A DNA stretch of 20,071 bases from a virus: the IMG/VR virus record IMGVR_UViG_3300035698_003878, positions 1-20,071 of that record. One strand, written 5' to 3'. How positions within the stretch are numbered: the stretch's first letter is position 1; each line of letters starts with the position of its first letter. The notes beneath the pieces are model-generated. The model was not told the DNA's origin, searched no databases, and worked only from the letters and a program-made list of their open reading frames with translations. This document shows positions 1,175 through 20,016 of the stretch, piece after piece. A program made the translations under genes and the position numbers.

Positions 1175-2158
1175 TTATGCTGTCGTTGTCGGCGCGTCGC
1201 TGACGTTGTTCACGTCTAGTTCAGTGCCAGGACTTACGTTAAGCTGATACGTGCCGCCTTGAATTTTGATCGGGTTCGTGATTGTAATGTTGCCTATGCC
1301 ATTGTTGAGATTGAGATAAGCTCCGTCGTGCCCTTCAACGTCTGTAACTGTCCGTGCCGTGTGACCTTTGCTTGCGTCGATCGTTCCAGCATGATGCTCA
1401 AATTTTGTCGCATCACCCTTATTCCAGATAAGAGTTCCGCCTCGGACAACGAAAGTTCCAAGATCACCGCAATTCGTCTCAGTATCGCTGCCATGAGTCC
1501 ATTGCCCCCCCTGAAATGCTACAGCGGTTGTTTCGGCATAATTCGTGATAACGCCTCCAGTGACTTCTATTGAAGCGGGAAGAACCGCGCCATGATGAAT
1601 CACCATGTTGACATCTTTAGCCGGGTCATCGACATAGCCGATGTTGAGGACTTGGTCCGAGCCAGTGAACCTGGTCAGGTAAGACAATTCTGAAAGGCCT
1701 TTTTTAGCGTATATCTGCTCGAAATAACCTGAGAGATATACCTTTGCATCGACTTTCGAATTCTGTAAACGTACCACTTCGATGTAAGTCGGTGCCGCTG
1801 TGGTCGTCGCTGCAATGGATGTTGTGGCGTCTTCATGTGAGGTCGTTGGGAGTTCGTAATTACCGCCGTGAATGTAGATGTCCTCGGCATTTTCGGCGTC
1901 AAGGATCACCTCCTCGGCGGTGAATTGCAGTGGCAAACCATAGCTTCCGAGACCGCCGTTGTAATTCTTGCCAACGAGGAACTTACGGAACTTCACCCCG
2001 AGATTGCCACCGACAGGTGAGTTGGTCGGATCGGCATAGATAAAACAGGGATCGTCACCTGCTACAGGATAACCGACACCACCGCCCTCTTTTTCCCAAT
2101 TCGCATTGACAGCCCAGACTGCGCTAGTGCCTCCAAGCCAATAATAGATATCTGTCAT
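1175..2158 (-). CDS. Fibre-like tail protein, probable beta-solenoid, with two Thr/Ala/Pro tags
   Basis: The 327-residue product is rich in Gly, Asn, Thr and Val, with recurring short beta-strand-like runs (VEVTGG, FVVRGGTLIWN, NITITNPIKIQGGTYQL) typical of parallel beta-helix adhesins and phage fibre or appendage proteins. It opens with a W-rich segment (YYWLGG...WAVNANWE) seen in many secreted or appendage proteins. It contains an internal AATTTAAPT stretch at residues 116-124, preceded by ATTSIA, and ends DAPTTTA at the stop codon. The same short tag ends the tail tube and cement proteins. Position among the last virion genes suggests a receptor-binding or decorative virion protein. I recognise no specific family; the virion location is inferred from position and the shared tag. 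Confidence 0.65.
   Translation of the reverse strand: MTDIYYWLGGTSAVWAVNANWEKEGGGVGYPVAGDDPCFIYADPTNSPVGGNLGVKFRKFLVGKNYNGGLGSYGLPLQFTAEEVILDAENAEDIYIHGGNYELPTTSHEDATTSIAATTTAAPTYIEVVRLQNSKVDAKVYLSGYFEQIYAKKGLSELSYLTRFTGSDQVLNIGYVDDPAKDVNMVIHHGAVLPASIEVTGGVITNYAETTAVAFQGGQWTHGSDTETNCGDLGTFVVRGGTLIWNKGDATKFEHHAGTIDASKGHTARTVTDVEGHDGAYLNLNNGIGNITITNPIKIQGGTYQLNVSPGTELDVNNVSDAPTTTA
1178..1195 (-). repeat. Thr/Pro C-terminal tag copy 1 (APTTTA, fibre-like protein)
   Basis: The last codons before TAA read GCG CCG ACA ACG ACA GCA. The plus-strand word gtcgttgtcggcg (1182-1194) recurs exactly at 7094-7106 and 12586-12598, each time just before a TAA stop of a different structural gene. Confidence 0.75.
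1787..1807 (-). repeat. Thr/Ala/Pro tag, internal copy (TTTAAPT)
   Basis: This is an internal copy of the tag, residues 118-124 of the fibre-like protein, within AATTTAAPT. The amino acid pattern matches the cement protein C-terminus, but the codons differ (ACG ACC ACA GCG GCA CCG ACT). It may mark a former C-terminus or a linker between two domains. Confidence 0.55.
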
Positions 2159-7086: not shown

Positions 7087-7992
7087 TTAAGCCGTCGTTG
7101 TCGGCGAGCCAAAGGTTATTGTGATTTCATCGTTTCCTGCCGAAGCCGATCTATTAGCTTGGAAATCGATTTCATCTGTCTGAATTCCTTCACGATCTCC
7201 CGGCTGGATATTTGTGAATTGCAGTTTCGGCATTGCAAAAGTGATCCCGCTTACGGTCAAAGTGAAAGCCGCTTCCGTCCCGATGATCCATTCTCCGAAG
7301 ACATCTTTGGTTGCGACAAGGCCCGATTCTGGATTGATACTGCCCACAACTTTCCTGTCAGTAATTGCTGCGTATACATATCCGTCAGAACTATTACCGC
7401 TCTCCCGCAGCATAACTGTATTGCCGAGGTCAATGCGCAACGATTGAATCACCGCCGTTGTCCATGAGCCTATTTCCAACCCGGCGCCCATAAATCGTGG
7501 AGGCCTGCTAGTCGGGAAGGTCGGCGCGAGCATTACGGTGTCCACCGGGGCTATCCAAATGCCGGTGAATGTCCACTCGACTTGTACCGGCTTGCCACTT
7601 TCAAAAACGAAAACGGCATTTCCCATAGCCCCTTTGAGTTTTTTGCAAAGCCCGTTTTCATAAATCCCGAGCGTTATTGTCTTGGCGTTTGTACCTGGGA
7701 CTTCTGAAACTGGAACATACGGTGTTCCTACTAATCCACAGGCTGGCAAAAGGATCGCTGACCAAGCAGAATCAAGCTCAGTCTTGAAGGAACAACTTCC
7801 GCCCAGCGCTCCAGGTTCGGCTGTAAGTTGCGAGAAAGCCGATTGCCCTGGGCGTTCGGCCAATTCAATTTCGGGTGTCATCTCGGCATCGAAGACATTG
7901 AACGCACCATCACTAGCGGTAAGCGCGATAGCCGTCCCTGCTGTCGTTTCTATTTTCGCGGCAAGGACACGTTTCTTTTTCAATAGTGACAT
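7087..7992 (-). CDS. Major tail tube protein (gpV-like), with Thr tag at C-terminus
   Basis: The 301-residue beta-rich protein lies between a tail-terminator-like gene and the tail assembly chaperone, the place of the tail tube subunit (lambda gpV). The start SLLKKKRVLAAKIETTAGTAI resembles the opening of many siphophage tube proteins (kvlaakiEttyGta). The middle includes short strands and the C-terminal region a beta sandwich-like stretch (AAFTLTVSGITFAMPKLQFT...DEITITFGS). It ends SPTTTA directly before TAA, the same tag as in the cement and fibre-like proteins. AGGAG at seven-base spacing supports ATG 7992. The tube assignment rests on position, start pattern and composition. Confidence 0.8.
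   Translation of the reverse strand: MSLLKKKRVLAAKIETTAGTAIALTASDGAFNVFDAEMTPEIELAERPGQSAFSQLTAEPGALGGSCSFKTELDSAWSAILLPACGLVGTPYVPVSEVPGTNAKTITLGIYENGLCKKLKGAMGNAVFVFESGKPVQVEWTFTGIWIAPVDTVMLAPTFPTSRPPRFMGAGLEIGSWTTAVIQSLRIDLGNTVMLRESGNSSDGYVYAAITDRKVVGSINPESGLVATKDVFGEWIIGTEAAFTLTVSGITFAMPKLQFTNIQPGDREGIQTDEIDFQANRSASAGNDEITITFGSPTTTA
7090..7107 (-). repeat. Thr/Pro C-terminal tag copy 2 (SPTTTA, tail tube)
   Basis: The codons before TAA are TCG CCG ACA ACG ACG GCT. They include the exact 13-base word (7094-7106) shared with the fibre-like and cement genes. Confidence 0.75.
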
Positions 7993-9060: not shown

Positions 9061-9402
9061 TTAGCTCACTTCTAATCTCAACATCCCGTCGTCATGGTTT
9101 ACCAATCCATTGATTATTCGCGTCTGTACATCTTCACCGAGTCGCAACGCAACATCAATCTTGTCCCCGCCCGTATCTAGCTCGGTGCCACTGATACCGC
9201 CATAATCGTCATCGTCCTTGTCTGTCTGTCTATTCGCCACTGTTATTGTTATATTCTGTCCCATGCCCCCGGGGGCTTGCGATATCCCCTCTGGAGGGTT
9301 CCTGTCCACAACAGCAAGGATTAACCGGGGATTGCCGTTCGCTGGCCTGTAGGTGATTTCCTCGCCAAACTGTTTCAGGATGATTTCCGCGTCACTTGCC
9401 AT
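9061..9402 (-). CDS. Head-tail joining protein (gpFII-like candidate)
   Basis: The 113-residue beta-rich protein has an N-terminal helix (DAEIILKQFGEEITYRPANG) followed by strand-like segments (PRLILAVVDR, NITITVANR) and an internal acidic loop (DKDDDDYGG). In lambda-like phages the small gene directly before gpZ is gpFII, which forms the head surface to which the tail binds, and length (117 in lambda) agrees. The start, with AAGG nine bases upstream, overlaps the end of the methyltransferase gene by 11 bases. The assignment is by position and general pattern. Confidence 0.65.
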   Translation of the reverse strand: MASDAEIILKQFGEEITYRPANGNPRLILAVVDRNPPEGISQAPGGMGQNITITVANRQTDKDDDDYGGISGTELDTGGDKIDVALRLGEDVQTRIINGLVNHDDGMLRLEVS

Positions 9403-10033
9403 GTAGGAATACCTTTTCGTTCACTTGTGATTCTTGCCGTCTGAAAACCATTATCCCTTTGCGCATATATGGGAAGTTGAGTTGCGGCAAGTCGTATTCT
9501 GGTTTGCTAACGAACTCATGCAGGCCATGTGAGGCTTGCGCGTCAAAACACATTCCATGTTCTCTGAATCGATGTATCCACCACGTCGGCGGCTGGCAGT
9601 TGAAATGACCGACTCCGCCCTGGTTGCCCGGCGTTGCTATGAGTAGAGGAGAAAACCTTTTGAGGTTTTCAAGAAATGTGTCGAGTGCTTCCTTTTCGAT
9701 ATGCTCAATCGTCTCGATACAGATTGTCAGGTCGTATTCCTGGCCAGCATCATAAGGGTCTCTCAGGTCAACAATATCTATTATATTCGGATTGATAACC
9801 GTCCGAGTTTTCGCAGAGGGTGATATATCTACACCTTTGATTGCATATCCCGCATTGCTGAAATGCTGCAAGAAGCATCCTGTAGCACACCCGGCATCGA
9901 AAACCGAAGTCACCTCGGGAAACAGCTTTTTCACCGCTTCAAGTAAAACTATCCCGGCCTCGGAATCACAACGATTGATTGTTTCCATAAATCCTGTGTC
10001 ATATATTTCTGCTAATTCGGTGGCAGTCTTCAT
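9392..10033 (-). CDS. Class I SAM-dependent methyltransferase (probable sugar O-methyltransferase)
   Basis: The 213-residue protein has motif I VFDAGCATGC at residues 44-53 (the Gly loop binding SAM), an acidic residue in GVDIS at about 69, and DLTICIETIEHI at 101-112, as in Methyltransf_11/23-type enzymes. HFNCQPPTWWIHRF at about 143-156 is common in the small methyltransferases that sit beside glycosyltransferases in phage and polysaccharide clusters. There is no membrane segment, so it is cytoplasmic. ATG 10033 lies in a TGATG overlap with the GT11-like gene, with GGAG six bases upstream; the GTG at 10036 is less likely. Context suggests it methylates a sugar added by the two upstream glycosyltransferases. 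A small-molecule or nucleic-acid substrate is not excluded. Confidence 0.82.
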   Translation of the reverse strand: MKTATELAEIYDTGFMETINRCDSEAGIVLLEAVKKLFPEVTSVFDAGCATGCFLQHFSNAGYAIKGVDISPSAKTRTVINPNIIDIVDLRDPYDAGQEYDLTICIETIEHIEKEALDTFLENLKRFSPLLIATPGNQGGVGHFNCQPPTWWIHRFREHGMCFDAQASHGLHEFVSKPEYDLPQLNFPYMRKGIMVFRRQESQVNEKVFLHGK

Positions 10034-10752
10034 CACTCGCTCCCCATTATTATATCGTTCTCATTCCAGATGAATCGGGTATGGTTGCCCTCGACATACT
10101 CACAATCACAAAGACCCGGTTCTTTAATGTCTGGACTGAAAACCTTCTTGCCATTGAGCAAAGCAGCCCAGAAACTGAAAGTGGAATTGGCGCGAAAGAT
10201 TACATCGGCCTGTACCATCCACATGAAATCACGCATGAAAGATACGCCTGTTGTAACGTGGAATTTATTCCGTCTTCTGAAATGCTCTTCCCTTTTAGGA
10301 TTCCCGTCGGAAATCCACAGAATATCATCCGCGTCATACCCCTCTTTTATTATTGCTTCAAACGTTGATTTCTTTGATATGACTGTCCGTTCTTCTAAGT
10401 TGTCTTGATAGTCCCCTGCACGAGAATGTGCTGCGACATAAAAAGGGATTGGCTTTGGATATTTCTCAAACCATTTCTTTTTGATTGGCATGATTTGACG
10501 GCAGTATTCAGCGGTGTATAGCTTGAGGAATTCTTGTTTTTGATAGTACCCGTATGGCATGAATTCGGCTTCACAATAAGCCAACCGGGGATCATCCAGG
10601 TCAAAAACTTCCCGGCCGTTCCAATCTTCGGGAACTTCTAATACGGCGTTTCGGTCTCTTGCGTATGCTTTCGCATAGGCATACTGAAACAGCGCATTCC
10701 CGAAACCACCAAACAGACCAATGCTTACAGCTCTAATTATCGCTAAAGACAT
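10033..10752 (-). CDS. GT11-like glycosyltransferase (alpha-1,2-fucosyltransferase family)
   Basis: The 239-residue protein starts with FGGFGNALFQYAYAKA at residues 14-29, the signature of GT11 alpha-1,2-fucosyltransferases (GGlGNqlFqYa.g). HSRAGDY at 109-115 corresponds to the HxRRxD motif that binds GDP-fucose, but the second Arg is Ala. NSTFSFWAALL at 189-199 matches the conserved SSFSwWaA.l motif. Family members are usually about 270-300 residues, so this copy is short in the middle. No membrane segment. It overlaps the end of the two-domain glycosyltransferase by ten bases, with GAGG seven bases upstream of ATG 10752. The sugar donor cannot be fixed from sequence, especially with the altered motif. 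Confidence 0.8.
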   Translation of the reverse strand: MSLAIIRAVSIGLFGGFGNALFQYAYAKAYARDRNAVLEVPEDWNGREVFDLDDPRLAYCEAEFMPYGYYQKQEFLKLYTAEYCRQIMPIKKKWFEKYPKPIPFYVAAHSRAGDYQDNLEERTVISKKSTFEAIIKEGYDADDILWISDGNPKREEHFRRRNKFHVTTGVSFMRDFMWMVQADVIFRANSTFSFWAALLNGKKVFSPDIKEPGLCDCEYVEGNHTRFIWNENDIIMGSE

Positions 10753-12500
10753 TTTACCGCCTCATAGATATTAAGTGTTTCGGCATCGTGTTCAAATCCT
10801 ACCGACGGCAACCAGTCCCTTCCTCCCCAACATTGGCCGTGCATTCCGATGTGTTTGACAAAACTCTCATCGGGGATGAAGTGCCAGAAATGCTTTTCAG
10901 TAAGGTCAAACCCAATCCCTTCATCCCAACCGAAGCCGTCGTGTTTCCAATAATCAGCGTCAAGATCGATCGATCTTATAACCTCTCGTGTCATCACATA
11001 TATCTGAGAGGAGGTTCTTGCCTTAATCCAAAACCCGGTGTGCTGCTTGCCTGATTCAGTCCACGGGAAGGCGACCCATTGCGGTTTGTAAAGCATGTTG
11101 TGAAAATGGTTCGGAAAGATTAACCCTAATCTTTTGCCGTGATTTGCCGATGCAAGATACCGTCGCATTTCGGCCTCGAATTCCATCGTCCTTTCGTACC
11201 AGTCATGGCGAAATAGGACGTCATTCTCGATCCACAAGAACCGCTCCCATTGATCTGATTTCGCTGCTTCACGCATTCGCATAAACGCTGTATGAGCAGA
11301 GGGACCGGGGCCAGGTGTTTTCGGATCGTCTTCTATTATCTCGCCGACACGGAGCTTGAACTCGTAAAGCATCTCCCTAACTCGTTGCGGCCCGAGATCG
11401 TCCGTCGGACAGATAATCACATTCATCAGTAATCGGTTTGCAACACTTGACTTGGAAAGAGACTCCAGAGTTGCCCGGGTATATTCCGGCCTGCCTTTGA
11501 TTTGAATAAATGCGTAGAGATCGGGGAATATCTTCTTAGGTGCGTCTGTGGTTATTCCAATTTCCTTTGCCTTTCTGTAAATGTCTTTTAGAATCCCGAC
11601 CTTTTGCAACCACTCTTTGTCTGTGAATTTCCGATTGTTTTGCACCCGTTCCTTCATCTTCAGTTCGTCTACTGTGAGCATACTATCGTCAAACACATAT
11701 CCAAAACATACTTGCTGGACCAGAGCTCTCATGTCGTCAAACATGATCTGTGTCATGGCTCTCATTATCACACTGGAATCGTTCCGGTCACACGCGTATG
11801 GTCTTGCCGGTTGTTCTTTCGTGTGCCCTCGATATTGGTGATAAGCGATGACGTGAGGTAGTAAGATGATCGGGATATCAAGAAGACCCGCACCACAGCC
11901 CAGGTATTCCTCATCCTGGCCATACCCCCGTCGGGCAGGTAGTCCTGGTAGTAGTTCCCAAGTCGCACGGCTTATGCCGTAACACGCGCCCATTAAACCG
12001 TTAACTCGAGTTAGCCCTTCTTGTTCCAGGGGATCCCAATGCAACCCTAGAAATTCCCTGCCAAGATTGTCGTGATGAGGCTCAAATATCCAATGGCACC
12101 CAAAACAAGGCAGCGGTTTCATTTCATAGCTACCCGAACGGCAACAGATAATGCACGGGCTATTTTCGTCAATCGCTTTGATGTATTCCTGTATCCAGCC
12201 AGAAGTGAATTTCATATGCGCATCGAGGATGATAAATCTGTCGGCGGTTGCCTTATTGATTCCGAACGTTCTTGACACCCCAACACCTTTGAAACCGACA
12301 TGGAAAACCTTCACTCCGTCTATCCAGTGAAGCCCTTCTGCACAACCATCCTCTGAGCTATCATCAATGACAATGATCTCGACAACCGCGCCGTTCGCTG
12401 TGTCCAGTACACACTTGACGGTCGGCTTTAATTCGACCTCATTCCTTGCTGTAATTATCACACTGATGTCTGGTTTCATTTTCTTCCTATTCTCTATCAT
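10743..12500 (-). CDS. Two-domain GT-A glycosyltransferase, N-terminal GT2 domain resembling polypeptide GalNAc-transferases
   Basis: The 585-residue cytoplasmic protein has an N-terminal GT2 domain at about residues 10-230: ISVIITARNE, IIVIDDSSEDG (42-52), GVGVSRTFGINKA, ILDAHMKFTSGW (91-102), GLMGACYGISRATWELL and YGQDEEYLG (193-201). DAH in place of DxD, with the following GLMG..Y.I and Q/E-DEE region, is the pattern of polypeptide GalNAc-transferases and related GT2 enzymes. After a linker (about 240-325) a second GT-A-like domain starts (LYAFIQIKGRPEYTRATLESL) with ENDV at 425-428 as candidate metal-binding motif. Starts at 12500 (GAGG, four-base spacing) or 12479 (MKPDISV, AGGA, five-base spacing) are both plausible. 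A bifunctional enzyme building a two-sugar unit is likely; acceptor unknown. Confidence 0.82.
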   Translation of the reverse strand: MIENRKKMKPDISVIITARNEVELKPTVKCVLDTANGAVVEIIVIDDSSEDGCAEGLHWIDGVKVFHVGFKGVGVSRTFGINKATADRFIILDAHMKFTSGWIQEYIKAIDENSPCIICCRSGSYEMKPLPCFGCHWIFEPHHDNLGREFLGLHWDPLEQEGLTRVNGLMGACYGISRATWELLPGLPARRGYGQDEEYLGCGAGLLDIPIILLPHVIAYHQYRGHTKEQPARPYACDRNDSSVIMRAMTQIMFDDMRALVQQVCFGYVFDDSMLTVDELKMKERVQNNRKFTDKEWLQKVGILKDIYRKAKEIGITTDAPKKIFPDLYAFIQIKGRPEYTRATLESLSKSSVANRLLMNVIICPTDDLGPQRVREMLYEFKLRVGEIIEDDPKTPGPGPSAHTAFMRMREAAKSDQWERFLWIENDVLFRHDWYERTMEFEAEMRRYLASANHGKRLGLIFPNHFHNMLYKPQWVAFPWTESGKQHTGFWIKARTSSQIYVMTREVIRSIDLDADYWKHDGFGWDEGIGFDLTEKHFWHFIPDESFVKHIGMHGQCWGGRDWLPSVGFEHDAETLNIYEAVKCL

Positions 12501-12529
12501 CTATCCTCTGTTTGTTTCATCCCCCAGAG

Positions 12530-12553
12530 GGGAGAGGCTCCATAGCCCCTCCC
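12530..12553. other. Hairpin-forming inverted repeat in the gap between cement protein and glycosyltransferase genes
   Basis: The arms 12530-12539 and 12544-12553 pair over 10 positions with one mismatch around the loop CCAT. The stem is G+C-rich but no T run follows on the minus strand, so it is not a canonical terminator. It sits at the left boundary of the sugar-gene insertion, in the longest intergenic gap (81 bases) of the head operon. Confidence 0.6.
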
Positions 12554-12581
12554 GTCCGAGGAGTGATGAAAGATGCCACCA

Positions 12582-12965
12582 TTACGTCGTTGTCGGCGCA
12601 GCAGTGGTTGTCGCGGCTGTTACATCCGGTGAATTGTTATTTAAGACCACTTTTGCGGCCGTCATTGTTGTTGCTACTTTTGCTTCTGCGGCTCGACCGG
12701 CTGCCACATTTGCGTACTCGGTGTCGGTCAGTTCACTGTTAGTGGCATCCCAATATATCTGCGCGCCAATGACCCACGCGTCAGCAGTTTTCGCATCGAG
12801 ATCATGAACGCCGTCTATCTCGACTTCACCCACGCCGGAACCGGCTGCAATATCTGCAACCGCAATTCCGATAAGGGTTCCCATCACAACGACATCCCCG
12901 GCACTTATCGCCGATCCAGCGTTGGTGTACGTTATCCGGTGTGCTGATTGAATGAATGTATCCAT
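12582..12965 (-). CDS. Capsid cement (decoration) protein, DUF2190-like, with TTTAAPTTT tag
   Basis: The 127-residue protein has the pattern of DUF2190-type capsid cement proteins: hydrophilic start (MDTFIQSAHRITYTNAGSA), ISAGDVVVMGTLIGIAVADIAAG, VEIDGVHDLDA and IGAQIYWDATNSELTDT. Members bind outside the capsid shell of tailed phages, like lambda gpD in role. It is encoded directly after the major capsid fusion, as expected. The final residues AATTTAAPTTT run to the stop and are unlike the rest of the domain; they form the clearest copy of the Thr/Ala/Pro tag found on three other structural proteins. AGGAG ten bases upstream supports ATG 12965. Confidence 0.85.
   Translation of the reverse strand: MDTFIQSAHRITYTNAGSAISAGDVVVMGTLIGIAVADIAAGSGVGEVEIDGVHDLDAKTADAWVIGAQIYWDATNSELTDTEYANVAAGRAAEAKVATTMTAAKVVLNNNSPDVTAATTTAAPTTT
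12585..12617 (-). repeat. Thr/Ala/Pro C-terminal tag copy 3 (AATTTAAPTTT, cement protein)
   Basis: Two TTT blocks are separated by AAP and end at TAA. The codons ACA ACC ACT GCT GCG CCG ACA ACG ACG include the exact 13-base word also found at the ends of the tail tube and fibre-like genes. Confidence 0.8.
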
Positions 12966-13038: not shown

Positions 13039-15318
13039 TTAGGTAGTTGTTGACGCAGCAGCTACACCTGAGTTGCTGTAGAGGCCACGGTGATCTATGG
13101 CTTTGGCAGCGCAGTAGTGAGTTACTGCGTATTTAATATCGCCTGTGTCGAATTCGGTTTCCTGTTTGAGCTGTGGAACCTGCTCCGCCTCGAGGAAAGC
13201 AATTTCGATTGTGTCGACCTGATTGGGGTCGGCGGCGATATACCAGATGTCTGTTGAGTTTGAATCCAAACGAGAATCGAACACCGGAATAAGCCCGTTA
13301 TTCCAAATGTTGACAACCCCGCCATAACCGGATTCCGGTTTGGAGGTTGACGCCAATAGCTCAAGGATAGTGCCTCGCAGAGCGTGTGGCGCGATGATGA
13401 ACTTCGGGACAAGATTCAGATTAGCCTCGCCGGAAATCCCTGTCTGGATCGCCATTGCAGCAGCCGCTGCATTAAGCGTGGTTACGCTCGGAACCGCGCC
13501 GGAACCATAAGCGACAAGGTTCGCATGTGTGGCGTGGAACAGCTCAACGGAATCAGTTCCGAGAGCCGCGTTAGCGGTCAAAATCGCATAGACAACATCG
13601 TCCTCTTTACGTTTGGCTGCGTTGGCCTGAAGCATCGGCACTCGGGAAAAGGCGTCAAGGTCATCATTGATGATCGTGTTTTTCGTCACCTTGATCCCGC
13701 CAACGTATTCGGCCAGTGCGTATGTCTCTTGCGACTCTGAAAGCGTGACATATTCGATGGGACCACCCTCATATCTTACCGCGAGATTCGGCGATTCGCT
13801 GAGTGCGTTGCGCTTGATAGTCTTGAGGTCGGCGCTTAGTGTTCTGCGAGCCCACACCTGCCATGTAGAGGGGGCCTCAAAATACGCCTGATTGAGCGTT
13901 TTGTTCATCGCGTTTTCGAGGATGTACGGGAAGTCGCTTGTTGATTGAGCAAGGAACTTGTCTCCGCATATCCGGCCAAGACGCTTAGGACTCATCATGC
14001 AATCTGCGATCTGAGAATTGCTGAGGGTTTCAGGACTTGCAACACCGAGGTTCCTGAGCCATTCACGGCCAATACCAACCAGGCTGAGGTTGCGGAATTG
14101 CCGGGCTCGATTGTGTGGCTGTTTGTATTTCAGCGTGCCGAGGTCTCCCCTTATGGCAAGGCCGGTGAATTCGTCTATCTCTACTTCACGCCCACCAGAT
14201 TTTAGAAGGATTGCTCCTTCAATTCCGGCTGAAAGAGATTCTCTGTTGAGATCTGTACCGCCTGAAATGATGAGTGGTTGTCCTTTTTTCGACATCGCTT
14301 CCAACGCTTCTTTTCGAGCGCTCCCTTCTGTGGTTCCTTTGTTTATGTTTTTCTGCAACCATTCCTGACTGAAGCCTGCTTGAGTTGCGATCCCCGTAAG
14401 AGCCGCGACCCGTTTCCGCTCAGTGAGCATGACCGTTTTAGCGGCTTTGTTTGCTGCAAGCTCGGCATCAGCAGCGCCGCTATCACCGTCTCCATCACCG
14501 TCACCGTCGTCGGCTTTTCCGTCATCGTTACCGTCGTCGGCGTCTCCGTCTGGTTTAGGTTCTGATTCCTCGGAGGCTACCTTCTCTGCGATAGCCTTTT
14601 CGTCACCATCGAGGCCGTCATAAAATTTCTGCGCTTCCTCTTCGGTAGCATCCGCTGGTAGTCCTTGTGTGATGAGATACTTCTTTAGTAATTCATCCAT
14701 TGTGTTTGTCCTTTCTGATATAAGTTCTGGTTTTCTTTGGCTTAATAGCCCGTTTGGATTTGCACTTGGCACACCAACAAAATCGACAGCTAGAAGCTCT
14801 CGAATACGGCCTGCCGGCAATCCTTCTTTCTGTTGTGATTCGTCGTACTCGTCAGGGCTGAATGCTATTGACAGCCCTATGATTTCAGGGTCTTCAACTG
14901 CAATGCCCAGGAGGAAGCTCCTAACATCACCACGACCCGGTAAGTTCTTTGCGTAGTTGGCAAGGTGCGCGTCGGCCCTAACTACGCCGTTTTCAATCTT
15001 CGCGTTCTTGAATCGTCCGACTGTCATATCAATATCTTCACCCGAAAATCTTTCGATTTCAGGATGAGTTAATCGGCTCCTGGCACCCTTCTCTTCAGCG
15101 TTAATCGCGTCGGAAACTTGCTGCAACATCACGTCATCCACGTGGAAAAAATGGCCTTTCGCCTCCCCTTTCGTTAAAACCGCAACGTTCTTTATCGTTC
15201 CAGCTTCCTCGTCGACGGTGATCTTCCCCGTCGAGAGATGTTTCTGTGACAGTTGAATAACTCCGTAGTTATTCCTTTTCGCTATTCTCGGATTCTTGTT
15301 CTTCGTTTTTACTGGCAT
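13039..15318 (-). CDS. Prohead protease / scaffold / major capsid protein fusion
   Basis: The 759-residue product from ATG 15318 (GGAG, seven-base spacing) is preferred over the 15372 start, which would overlap the portal more. Residues 1-205 are a prohead protease: LTHPEIERFSGEDID with candidate catalytic His85, GLSIAF with candidate Ser150, and AVDFVGVPSANPNGLL. Residues about 207-345 are a scaffold-like helical domain with an acidic GDGDGDGD stretch (251-288). Residues from about 350 on are the major capsid protein (HK97-type fold expected), ending AAASTTT. Proteases fused to capsid proteins are known in tailed phages. The scaffold is cleaved off during maturation. An internal in-frame Met207 with a strong ribosome site at 14700 suggests a second product without protease. 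The gene order portal, fusion, cement protein fits. Confidence 0.88.
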   Translation of the reverse strand: MPVKTKNKNPRIAKRNNYGVIQLSQKHLSTGKITVDEEAGTIKNVAVLTKGEAKGHFFHVDDVMLQQVSDAINAEEKGARSRLTHPEIERFSGEDIDMTVGRFKNAKIENGVVRADAHLANYAKNLPGRGDVRSFLLGIAVEDPEIIGLSIAFSPDEYDESQQKEGLPAGRIRELLAVDFVGVPSANPNGLLSQRKPELISERTNTMDELLKKYLITQGLPADATEEEAQKFYDGLDGDEKAIAEKVASEESEPKPDGDADDGNDDGKADDGDGDGDGDSGAADAELAANKAAKTVMLTERKRVAALTGIATQAGFSQEWLQKNINKGTTEGSARKEALEAMSKKGQPLIISGGTDLNRESLSAGIEGAILLKSGGREVEIDEFTGLAIRGDLGTLKYKQPHNRARQFRNLSLVGIGREWLRNLGVASPETLSNSQIADCMMSPKRLGRICGDKFLAQSTSDFPYILENAMNKTLNQAYFEAPSTWQVWARRTLSADLKTIKRNALSESPNLAVRYEGGPIEYVTLSESQETYALAEYVGGIKVTKNTIINDDLDAFSRVPMLQANAAKRKEDDVVYAILTANAALGTDSVELFHATHANLVAYGSGAVPSVTTLNAAAAAMAIQTGISGEANLNLVPKFIIAPHALRGTILELLASTSKPESGYGGVVNIWNNGLIPVFDSRLDSNSTDIWYIAADPNQVDTIEIAFLEAEQVPQLKQETEFDTGDIKYAVTHYCAAKAIDHRGLYSNSGVAAASTTT
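13042..13062 (-). repeat. Thr-rich C-terminal tag, weak copy 4 (AAASTTT, major capsid)
   Basis: The major capsid protein ends GVAAASTTT. Codons before TAA are GCT GCG TCA ACA ACT ACC, similar in amino acid pattern to the other tags but without the shared 13-base word, so this copy is weaker. Confidence 0.5.
14481..14552 (-). repeat. Acidic Asp/Gly low-complexity repeat in the scaffold domain
   Basis: Short tandem units of the type CACCGT/CGTCGT on the plus strand encode repeated GDGD/DDG on the minus strand. Such tracts are prone to length change. It lies in the scaffold linker between protease and capsid domains. Confidence 0.75.
14698..14712 (-). promoter_or_regulatory. Internal ribosome binding site and start within the protease-capsid fusion
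   Basis: AGGA (14712-14709) lies eight bases before an in-frame ATG at 14700, which begins MDELLKKYL. The spacing is ideal, and the site falls exactly between protease and scaffold domains, giving a 553-residue scaffold-capsid product in the same frame. Confidence 0.75.
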
Positions 15319-16873
15319 CGGTTTTCTCCGTTGGAGTGTTGTTTGCTTGGGCGTCTGGTAGGTATAATTCAAGCTGTTTCGCTTGCTCTTGTTCGTCTTT
15401 TGTCTGTCTCAACACGGTCCCGACATCGGTGCCCTTTTCGTTGAGAAGGCCGCCCCGTGTCGCTAATCTATAATCAATTGCTTTCGCCGCTGCGTTAACC
15501 TCTTTGAGAGGATCAATCCAAGGCTTGGCAGGCCCACGCCATTCATCCTCGAGATATGCTTCCATTGTTTCCGGTGAATCGAAAAAGCCAGGAGCTTCTA
15601 CAAGGCCCTGCATGATTGCGTACATCTTAAATGCTTCACGAACAGGCCTGCAAAAGTCATCTATGATGAGTAGTTGGATTGCGTCGGTCTCTTTGTAACA
15701 TTCCAGCATCCCTTGACGCTGTGAGCTGAAATTCCCTCGTGAATAATCGCGGGCAATGGAAGCGAAATCCAATCCCATTGCGGCTGCTATTTGTGAGACC
15801 TGTGCTTTCACAAACGGGTCATACTGATTCCCCGGTGATTGTGGATTGTTGAACTCGATTTTTTCTCCCGGTGCAAGTGGAATAAAGCCACCCGGCTCCA
15901 TGATGTATTCGTCCGAGCCGCGGCTGTCTGTTCCCGTCTCCCCGTCAGACGTGTCCGGGGCAAGTCCTGGAAGGACTGCATCGGCGTCAAGGTCTCTCTG
16001 GATTGCTGCAACATGGCAGGCTTCCATTCGCGCTTTCACGATGGTATATTGGTCATACATCTCAAGGTGTCTTGTCTTGATTCCCACCGGAGCCATACGA
16101 GTAACGCCGCGTGTTTGTCTCACCCGATCTTGATCGAAAACATGAAGGACACGTCGAGCTTCCACGCGTAGAGATTTCATCGAATATCCGTAGTTCGTAG
16201 AGGACACAAACCAATAAGCGAGCGGCGCTCCATATGAGTCTATCTCGACTCCACCACGAACATCGTTTCCATTGTCAGGGTTCTTTGTCAGTGTCATATC
16301 AAGCTGTTCGGCTTCAGCCATTTGAAGCACGAGCCCGACGCGGTTTTCTTGCGGTATGTAAGAGAGGATGCAGAACGCTTCACCGACAATAACCAGCTCT
16401 GATACAAGCAAGTTTTCGATTGTCCGGAAGTTCTTCTGCCTTTCGATATCACAGAAGGCTTTTGTCCGCGCCCATCTGTTCCAGGATCTATCGAGGCCCT
16501 TGTTGAATTTACTAAAGGCTTCACCTGTTCCCGGGTCTCTTGCAACAGAGACAGGGGTTATGCCTGTACCGACAACGGAGCGCTTGAAACTTCTCAATGC
16601 CGATGCAATGATCCAGTTATCGCGTGCCAATTGACGCGCTCGATTGTTGAGCGTTTCAACATCCGTCACCATGATTTGATCGGCTGTTTGTTTTTTCGCA
16701 GTCCAATCAGAGGTTAATCGGTTCTTTGCAGCGGCACCATGCGTGCTTAACAGAGCCGTCCTAGTCTTAATAATCTTGCGCTTGTACTTAGCTTCTGCGA
16801 GCGATAACCTTGTCTGTTCGTCCGAAAGTCTTTCTTTCAATGTCCGAGTCTTGCGCTTCTTTTGATTAGCCAT
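15269..16873 (-). CDS. Portal protein (lambda gpB family)
   Basis: The 534-residue product from ATG 16873 (AGGA seven bases upstream) matches the length of lambda gpB (533). An upstream in-frame ATG at 16936 would overlap gpW extensively. Family features: NNRARQLARDNWIIASALRSF near the N-terminus, VVGTGITPV, EAFSKFNKGLDRSWNRWA, FRTIENLLVSELVIVGEAFC (the clip/stem region), HVFDQDRVRQTRGVTRMAPV, and a long stretch ending AAMGLDFASIARDYSRGNFSSQRQGMLE, typical of lambda-like portals. The portal dodecamer forms the DNA entry vertex. The C-terminal tail is low-complexity and acidic (EKTDASKNEEQESENSEKE). The 3' end overlaps the protease-capsid start by 50 bases. Confidence 0.9.
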   Translation of the reverse strand: MANQKKRKTRTLKERLSDEQTRLSLAEAKYKRKIIKTRTALLSTHGAAAKNRLTSDWTAKKQTADQIMVTDVETLNNRARQLARDNWIIASALRSFKRSVVGTGITPVSVARDPGTGEAFSKFNKGLDRSWNRWARTKAFCDIERQKNFRTIENLLVSELVIVGEAFCILSYIPQENRVGLVLQMAEAEQLDMTLTKNPDNGNDVRGGVEIDSYGAPLAYWFVSSTNYGYSMKSLRVEARRVLHVFDQDRVRQTRGVTRMAPVGIKTRHLEMYDQYTIVKARMEACHVAAIQRDLDADAVLPGLAPDTSDGETGTDSRGSDEYIMEPGGFIPLAPGEKIEFNNPQSPGNQYDPFVKAQVSQIAAAMGLDFASIARDYSRGNFSSQRQGMLECYKETDAIQLLIIDDFCRPVREAFKMYAIMQGLVEAPGFFDSPETMEAYLEDEWRGPAKPWIDPLKEVNAAAKAIDYRLATRGGLLNEKGTDVGTVLRQTKDEQEQAKQLELYLPDAQANNTPTEKTDASKNEEQESENSEKE

Positions 16874-19084: not shown

Positions 19085-19105
19085 TGTTTATCTCTGATTC
19101 AGGGC

Positions 19106-19152
19106 AAGAAAAAAGGCGGCAGTTAAGTGGTTAGGCACCTAACTGCCGCCTT
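19106..19152 (-). terminator. Intrinsic terminator-like hairpin before terL
   Basis: Perfect 13-base arms 19113-19125 and 19140-19152 surround a 14-base loop that can pair further (GTG/CAC). On the minus strand the stem is followed directly by TTTTTTCTT (19114-19106). This meets the definition of a Rho-independent terminator for leftward transcription. Confidence 0.85.
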
Positions 19153-19168
19153 GAATTTTCTTTTTCTG

Positions 19169-19191
19169 CTCTCAGGGAGCTAACCTGAGAG
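19169..19191. other. Second hairpin between the small membrane gene and terL
   Basis: Arms CTCTCAGG (19169-19176) and CCTGAGAG (19184-19191) are perfect with a 7-base loop. On the minus strand no T run follows, so alone it is not a terminator. It lies 16 bases from the terminator stem and could act with it, or as a protein or RNA-processing site. Confidence 0.65.
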
Positions 19192-19205
19192 ACGCCCTGT
19201 AATTG

Positions 19206-19502
19206 TTATTTCATTTCGGTCGAAGCCTTTAATATTCGTCTTGCAATTTCTAAATATTGAGGTAGTGCTATTATTAACCTTAGTAATACTTCTGGTCTTT
19301 CTGTACACCCAAGCGTACGTGTTTTATGAATTACTCCTTGCCCCTTCACGTTGTTTTTGAATGCTTCAATACAACGTGTGAGTTCTGAGTTTACTTGTAG
19401 CCAAATGCGCTGGTTGCGCAATCTGTTCCACTTTCGCCGCCTGACTATCCGCATAATCAAATAACACGTGAGTGGAATTCCTAGTATTAAACAAATAGTC
19501 AT
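19206..19502 (-). CDS. Small single-membrane-segment protein of unknown function, moron-like
   Basis: The 98-residue product from ATG 19502 (seven bases after the terS stop, with GAGAG just upstream) begins MTICLILGIPLTCYLIMRIVRRRKW: one N-terminal hydrophobic helix followed by a strongly basic stretch, so cytoplasmic C-terminus is expected. An upstream ATG at 19553 would overlap terS and add 17 basic residues. The remainder is soluble and helical with two cysteines. The gene is AT-rich (about 38% G+C in lines counted by hand) and is followed directly by the tandem hairpins. That makes it look like a moron inserted between terS and terL. No family recognised; superinfection exclusion is only a guess. 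Confidence 0.6.
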   Translation of the reverse strand: MTICLILGIPLTCYLIMRIVRRRKWNRLRNQRIWLQVNSELTRCIEAFKNNVKGQGVIHKTRTLGCTERPEVLLRLIIALPQYLEIARRILKASTEMK

Positions 19503-19509
19503 TGCTCTC

Positions 19510-20016
19510 TCATCCTGTCTTTTCTTTCGCTTCGATTTCAATATCACCCGCAAACTGTTTACAAATCCGTTCTATTTGTTCTGTCAATTTCCCTTTGATA
19601 ATTTCTTTTGACCGATTCACAAGCTCTTCTGGTAAGTGTCGCACGAGGGCATAGAGTTCATGCTTTACGGAGTATATCTGCTTGAGCCGTCTTTCTTTGC
19701 AATCCGAAACCCGATGCAGCAAGCCTTCTAGTTCTTTCCTTTGAAGCTGTTTCATGAGGGCTCTCTCAACAGTGAGGCTGAGCTGAGCTGTGCGTTGTTC
19801 TCTGCTAACAACGCCACCGCCGAGGGGACGCCCAGGTTGAGCTGTACGTCCCTGCTTCTCTAACCATTTATCGACTTCGGAAATGCTAAACATATACGGC
19901 GAGCCGACAATCTTTTTGCGGCTGCTCGGACATCCTTCTTTCGCCCAATTCAAAACAGTCCGAGGGTTCACCCCGAAATGCTTCCCGATGTCTTCTTTAA
20001 GCTTTGTTCGTCTCAT
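19510..20016 (-). CDS. terS: Terminase small subunit, Nu1-like DNA-binding protein
   Basis: The 168-residue protein opens with a winged-helix-turn-helix: LKEDIGKHFGVNPRTVLNWAKEG at about residues 6-28 and SPYMFSISEVDKWLEKQG at about 39-56, the typical arrangement of lambda gpNu1. A coiled-coil region (REQRTAQLSLTVERALMKQLQRKELEGLLHR split across about 72-105) follows, as in Nu1. Residues about 106-160 form the probable terminase-binding and oligomerisation part. It recognises cos or pac DNA and recruits TerL. GGA eight bases upstream supports ATG 20016. Position next to terL fits, although another gene lies between them. Confidence 0.82.
   Translation of the reverse strand: MRRTKLKEDIGKHFGVNPRTVLNWAKEGCPSSRKKIVGSPYMFSISEVDKWLEKQGRTAQPGRPLGGGVVSREQRTAQLSLTVERALMKQLQRKELEGLLHRVSDCKERRLKQIYSVKHELYALVRHLPEELVNRSKEIIKGKLTEQIERICKQFAGDIEIEAKEKTG

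Follow-up and report, generated by a model that had tools for sequence, protein, structure and literature searches.

What are two glycosyltransferases (GTs) and a methyltransferase doing in the middle of a phage head operon? The window analyzed here is an entire IMG/VR record of 20,071 bases; it is linear and represents part of the genome of an uncultured tailed phage. All its credible genes lie on the minus strand in a lambda-like order: terminase, gpW-like protein, portal, protease-capsid fusion, cement protein, three enzymes, head closure, neck and tail terminator, followed by the major tail protein, tape measure, tail tip and small genes (Table 1). The enzyme cassette splits the order of cement followed by head closure (head-tail) that is usual for a lambda-like head module. 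In RcOceanus and LESphi2, head closure comes directly after cement, with nothing between. An earlier sequence-only reading had described three adjacent, overlapping genes that break the head gene order, and the coordinates, the overlaps and the adjacency in RcOceanus and LESphi2 all agree with it. PDB searches gave no useful solved structure for the capsid or tail protein, and 9gay alone, a weak match (E 0.005), for cement.

Table 1. Positions of the features of the window that are discussed in the text; each C-terminal tag is followed by the stop.
Feature	Position	Strand	Basis or remark
327-aa protein, 3' of the tail genes	1175..2158	minus	by its position and tags, probably a fibre or another surface protein of the virion
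Thr tag, C-terminus of 327-aa protein, DAPTTTA	1175..1198	minus	tag count
Internal Thr tag of 327-aa protein, AATTTAAPT	1787..1813	minus	translation
Major tail (tube) protein	7087..7992	minus	position, phrog_290 match, similarity to L002 tail protein
Thr tag, C-terminus of major tail protein, SPTTTA	7087..7107	minus	tag count
Head-closure/head-tail joining protein, normally next after cement	9061..9402	minus	phrog_82 weak, E 0.05; position as in RcOceanus and LESphi2
Class I SAM-dependent methyltransferase, 214 aa	9392..10036	minus	PF13489, E 1e-10
GT11-like glycosyltransferase (alpha-1,2-fucosyltransferase family), 239 aa	10033..10752	minus	PF01531, HSRAGDY motif
Two-part glycosyltransferase, 585 aa	10743..12500	minus	PF00535, E 3e-19
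N-domain of this enzyme, polypeptide-GalNAc-transferase-like GT-A	residues 8-318	minus	DDSS 46-49, DAH 93-95, H221, R224
Second region of this enzyme, possibly another GT-A domain	residues ~319-585	minus	ENDV motif
Strong RNA hairpin, cement stop to GT start	12523..12561	minus	RNA folding
Cement (decoration) protein	12582..12965	minus	PF09956
Thr tag, C-terminus of cement, SPDVTAATTTAAPTTT	12582..12632	minus	reads ...AATTTAAPTTT
Prohead protease-major capsid protein fusion	13039..15372	minus	taken from the first start of the ORF; the true start may differ
Thr tag, C-terminus of protease-major capsid fusion, VAAASTTT	13039..13065	minus	tag count

The overlaps measure 10 bp between the 585-aa glycosyltransferase (GT2) and GT11-like genes, 4 bp between the GT11-like and methyltransferase genes, and 11 bp between the methyltransferase and head-closure genes. 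Since successive cassette genes overlap by 4-11 bp, translational coupling inside the structural operon is suggested. No internal promoter above background was found in the cassette region (4 found vs. 6.4 expected). The predicted hairpin between the cement and GT genes is without a T tract; the 96-base stretch at 12495-12590 folds at -40.2 kcal/mol (z -3.8). This hairpin may hold the enzyme level below the cement level.

In PDB sequence searches, the N-domain of the first enzyme matched polypeptide GalNAc-transferases best (E about 6e-5). Searches with the entire 585-aa enzyme or parts of it found no homologue in INPHARED, IMG/VR or GTDB contigs. N-domain homologues were reached via a DNA pattern for DAHMxFxxGW, which gave 25 IMG/VR and 37 genome stretches, and many of these encode N-domain homologues (best E 4e-23). 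In 13 aligned sequences, DDxS, DAH (D93-A94-H95) and H221 were invariant and R224 was nearly so; the invariance of DAH is partly built in because DAH was the search key, while the other motifs were not selected. We take the DxH and the downstream His (D93, H95 and H221) to be equivalent to the metal ligands of GalNAc-transferases. The AlphaFold model, made from the homologue alignment, was confident over most of residues 8-318. With this model, the best 50 chains in Foldseek were all polypeptide GalNAc-transferases. After re-alignment, the top 29 PDB entries were again all of this family (Z 23.9-28.4), and the next family was represented by the fucosyltransferase WrtF (Z 22.0). The earlier claim of a first GT domain with DAH and other GalNAc-transferase features is thus borne out by the motifs, the PDB matches and the predicted fold, and a GalNAc-transferase-like N-domain is supported on all three counts, as far as a modeled fold can tell. 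"GalNAc" here denotes resemblance, not donor specificity, as a shared fold shows neither donor nor acceptor.

The window enzyme shares with CAZy family GT27 (mucin-type) the GT-A fold, DDxS, DxH and a downstream His/Arg, and the Thr/Ala/Pro tags of the window are acceptor-like. However, the two are 16-20% identical, the C-terminal region of the window enzyme differs from the ricin-type lectin domain of GT27, and GT27 enzymes belong to the Golgi, whereas this one is phage-encoded and cytoplasmic. Pfam found no ricin-type lectin domain in the 585-aa protein, nor anything besides PF00535 at E <= 0.1; given that no lectin domain was found, we named the enzyme GT27-like and not a GT27 member. Searches with the C-terminal region found no homologue, and AlphaFold without an alignment gave it a pLDDT of 36. 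This region is possibly a second GT-A domain, a label for which the ENDV motif is the sole basis. The PF11397-like phage DAHM enzymes were considered as relatives and set aside as a separate set, with Thr-runs in 0 of 12 examined stretches. GT genes of this PF11397-like DAHMxFxxGW type occur in L211, L212, L219, L222 and similar stretches; several IMG/VR contigs carry them, as do many bacterial genomes. L273 (9518-10909), from a phage tail region, has a GT27-like domain with a match to PF00777 (glycosyltransferase family 29) in the N-terminal stretch ahead of it.

The second enzyme scored 28.3 bits against PF01531 (Glyco_transf_11; cut-off 23.9) and has the HxRxGDY motif of GT11 alpha-1,2-fucosyltransferases, although it is only about 25% identical to cyanophage GT11 members. 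The third scored 41.6 bits against PF13489 (cut-off 27). Hydropathy gave no credible membrane span in any of the three enzymes; the single peak above 1.6, at residues 200-218 of the GT2 protein, is inside the GT-A core, in keeping with the earlier statement that membrane segments are missing. These results bear on a possible role of the cassette in infected cells, namely modification of a host protein or, as in serotype conversion, of the host envelope. The N-domain weakly matched the GtrB-like phage family phrog_841 (E 4e-5) as well as generic exopolysaccharide GTs, and GtrABC O-antigen conversion also employs a family-2 glycosyltransferase in a phage. We nevertheless consider envelope or host-protein modification decidedly unlikely: neither a flippase (GtrA) nor a GtrC-like, membrane-bound specific transferase was seen in the 20,071-base fragment, the three enzymes sit in the structural operon at a late position and lack a convincing membrane segment, and the GalNAc-transferase-like fold outranks other GT-A families. 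Some phage GTs glycosylate DNA (PMC12619734), but such a role is very improbable here, as the enzymes lie within the head operon and no modified-base synthesis gene was recognized within the 20 kb of this fragment record.

If the substrate is a virion protein, the structural proteins of the window offer candidates. TTT was found within the last five residues of 4 of the 24 window proteins, where composition predicts 0.026 (P = 9e-9). This confirms the earlier observation of Thr/Ala/Pro tags on structural proteins. Profile searches gave no family match for the tagged 327-aa protein. The Thr codons of the tags are mixed (ACA, ACC, ACT and ACG). Because the codons vary, the tags are not a simple DNA repeat, and DNA slippage or such a repeat is ruled out as their source. 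The DNA word CCGACAACGAC is common to three of the four tags (12582-12599, 7087-7107 and 1175-1198), and the tags may have been copied between genes.

The C-termini were compared with those of homologues in 86 other records, of which 84 capsid and 61 cement proteins had readable ends. TTT in the last five residues was present in none of these 84 capsid and 61 cement homologues; only one tagged phage of the lineage stands on the other side of the comparison. The near-identical cements of L131 and L132 have TTT inside the last strand and no tag. Capsid homologues mostly end near ...RGLYKNPGA and cement homologues near ...VRLNGSF; the window proteins run about 7 and about 16 residues further, respectively. 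Similarly, the L002 tail protein ends at ITIG, where that of the window goes on with SPTTTA. In a few homologues, those of L002 and L133 among them, the end is rearranged or extended. None of the three cassette enzymes was found by phmmer at the examined loci of the relatives, and a PF00535 gene was present in 0 of 44 whole records of relatives. At the level of sequence, these comparisons support the tags as clean C-terminal add-ons that are missing from relatives that are also without the enzymes.

L002 is the closest relative (terminase 50% identical) and has no Thr tags. It carries (12058-12822, 19090-19665) a gene of weak GT-A likeness that lies between terminase and gpW, with PF00535 at E 0.05, below the cut-off, and genes without assigned function in the gap between cement and head closure, the site of the window's cassette. 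In L133 (12373-14133), cement is extended to 586 aa and nearly 3 kb precede head closure. Cement seems to be where surface add-ons are mounted, and the cement/head-closure gap to be a cargo site.

The tags could instead be flexible C-terminal spacers, with the enzymes glycosylating a virion protein elsewhere, the baseplate or tail fibre being examples. Phage proteins often have Thr/Ala/Pro runs as linkers, the peptide TTTAAPTTT occurs in at least 120 IMG/VR stretches, and L273 and L280 have a GT27-like gene without a Thr-run in the stretch examined. In the window, however, the tags end unrelated folds, lie beyond the stops of homologues and occur on likely surface proteins only, and a spacer at the extreme C-terminus would join nothing. 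We regard the spacer explanation as unlikely.

Among the matches listed, TTTAAPTTT was placed at the C-termini of small proteins and also in the interior of longer ones. The sequence-only reading had called for an analysis of tag and GT co-occurrence across related phages, and the outcome was divided. Again among the matches listed, PF00535, the only GT family surveyed in the tag-bearing records, was found in 18 of 84: 7 of the 34 whose tag is C-terminal and 11 of the 50 others. The controls, selected not at random but by means of an unrelated peptide pattern, had it in 1 of 50. The Fisher p value was 9e-4, or 5e-6 once the 44 relatives (0/44) joined the controls, in a test that ignores relatedness. 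Counting against the association, 66 of the 84 tag-bearing records, many of them short fragments, had no PF00535 match, and 8 of the 13 examined GT27-like-bearing stretches had no Thr-run. A dense Thr-run protein was present in the other 5 of the 13, compared with 2 of 86 controls, likewise without regard to relatedness; one phage group accounts for four of these, and the fifth, L279, is independent, making two lineages. A GT ORF directly follows the tagged ORF in L042, L050 and L018 and is close by in L102. For the 18 positives, the distance from tag to GT was marginally short (8/18 within 5 kb vs. 5.2 expected, P 0.06), so that the proximity is only suggestive.

That weak distance test, together with the other genes that L002 and L133 have in the cement/head-closure gap, could mean that the cassette consists of moron genes unconnected to the tags, the co-occurrence being a coincidence or a host-lineage bias. 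We consider this very improbable, as GT-positive records are about tenfold commoner among tag-bearing records and the enzymes recur near Thr-run proteins. On the 204-kb phage contig L279 (8420-16492), a Thr-run protein is followed in order by a GT27-like enzyme, a GT2, a NodZ-like gene (a putative fucosyltransferase, of weak likeness), a protein of unknown family, a GT and a methyltransferase. L282 has a Thr-run protein together with a cassette of several GTs, a likely methyltransferase and a nucleotidyltransferase. Both cassettes parallel the GT27-like, GT11-like and methyltransferase set of the window.

The cassette is, in our judgment, probably a phage-encoded, cytoplasmic, mucin-like virion O-glycosylation system acting on the Thr tags, comparable to the glycosylation of mucins in animals. 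The gene order, the tags, their absence in relatives, the predicted GT27-like fold with its motifs and the co-occurrence in unrelated phages support it. The earlier reading, in which the cassette would build a short methylated glycan on the tags, is borne out in part. We infer the acceptor, the sugars, the order of the steps, the surface exposure and the purpose as follows. The GT27-like domain would place a first sugar, from a nucleotide-sugar donor drawn from the host, directly onto the tag Thr in the cytoplasm, before or during assembly. The acceptors would be the short Thr/Ala/Pro tags at the ends of the capsid, cement, tail-tube and fibre-like proteins. The C-terminal region of the 585-aa protein and the GT11-like enzyme would lengthen the glycan, and the methyltransferase would cap it. 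The glycan might serve to shield the virion or to alter adsorption.

Mycobacteriophages such as Che8 are reported to carry glycans at the C-termini of the major capsid and tail-tube subunits (Freeman 2023, via PMC12619734, PMC11256854 and PMC10877033). On this account, the two systems have phage-encoded glycosyltransferases in common, and in the window the capsid and tail tube likewise bear C-terminal tags. The last residues are FNKTGS in the Che8 capsid protein and SDGS in its tail protein; in the window they are Thr/Ala/Pro tags. The window further differs in its GT27-like, GT11-like and methyltransferase set within the head operon, and in the tags on cement and the fibre-like protein. By this analogy, the window system would be a new variety of the C-terminal virion glycosylation already known from mycobacteriophages.

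If this is true, the locus encodes a compact, lipid-free system of two parts, a peptide tag and an initiating transferase, for mucin-like O-glycosylation in the bacterial cytoplasm. It would give a reason for the Thr/Ala/Pro tags that are very common, and so far unexplained, in proteins of environmental phages, point to virion shielding, offer a simple tag-and-enzyme tool and give a testable rule: where a tag is found, a transferase should be sought. More tentatively, and with rather less confidence than for the window itself, mucin-type O-glycosylation could be widespread in uncultured tailed phages. TTTAAPTTT-like tags on virion proteins and adjacent soluble GalNAc-transferase-like or related GT-A enzymes would then have been gained independently by unrelated lineages, and glycan-coated virions would be built entirely in the bacterial cytoplasm. 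In L018 (2956-4378), a 102-aa protein consists mostly of TTTTAAP repeats, resembling a mini-mucin, and the start of the GT encoded directly after it (IFVQIASYxD) resembles the PF11397-like enzymes.
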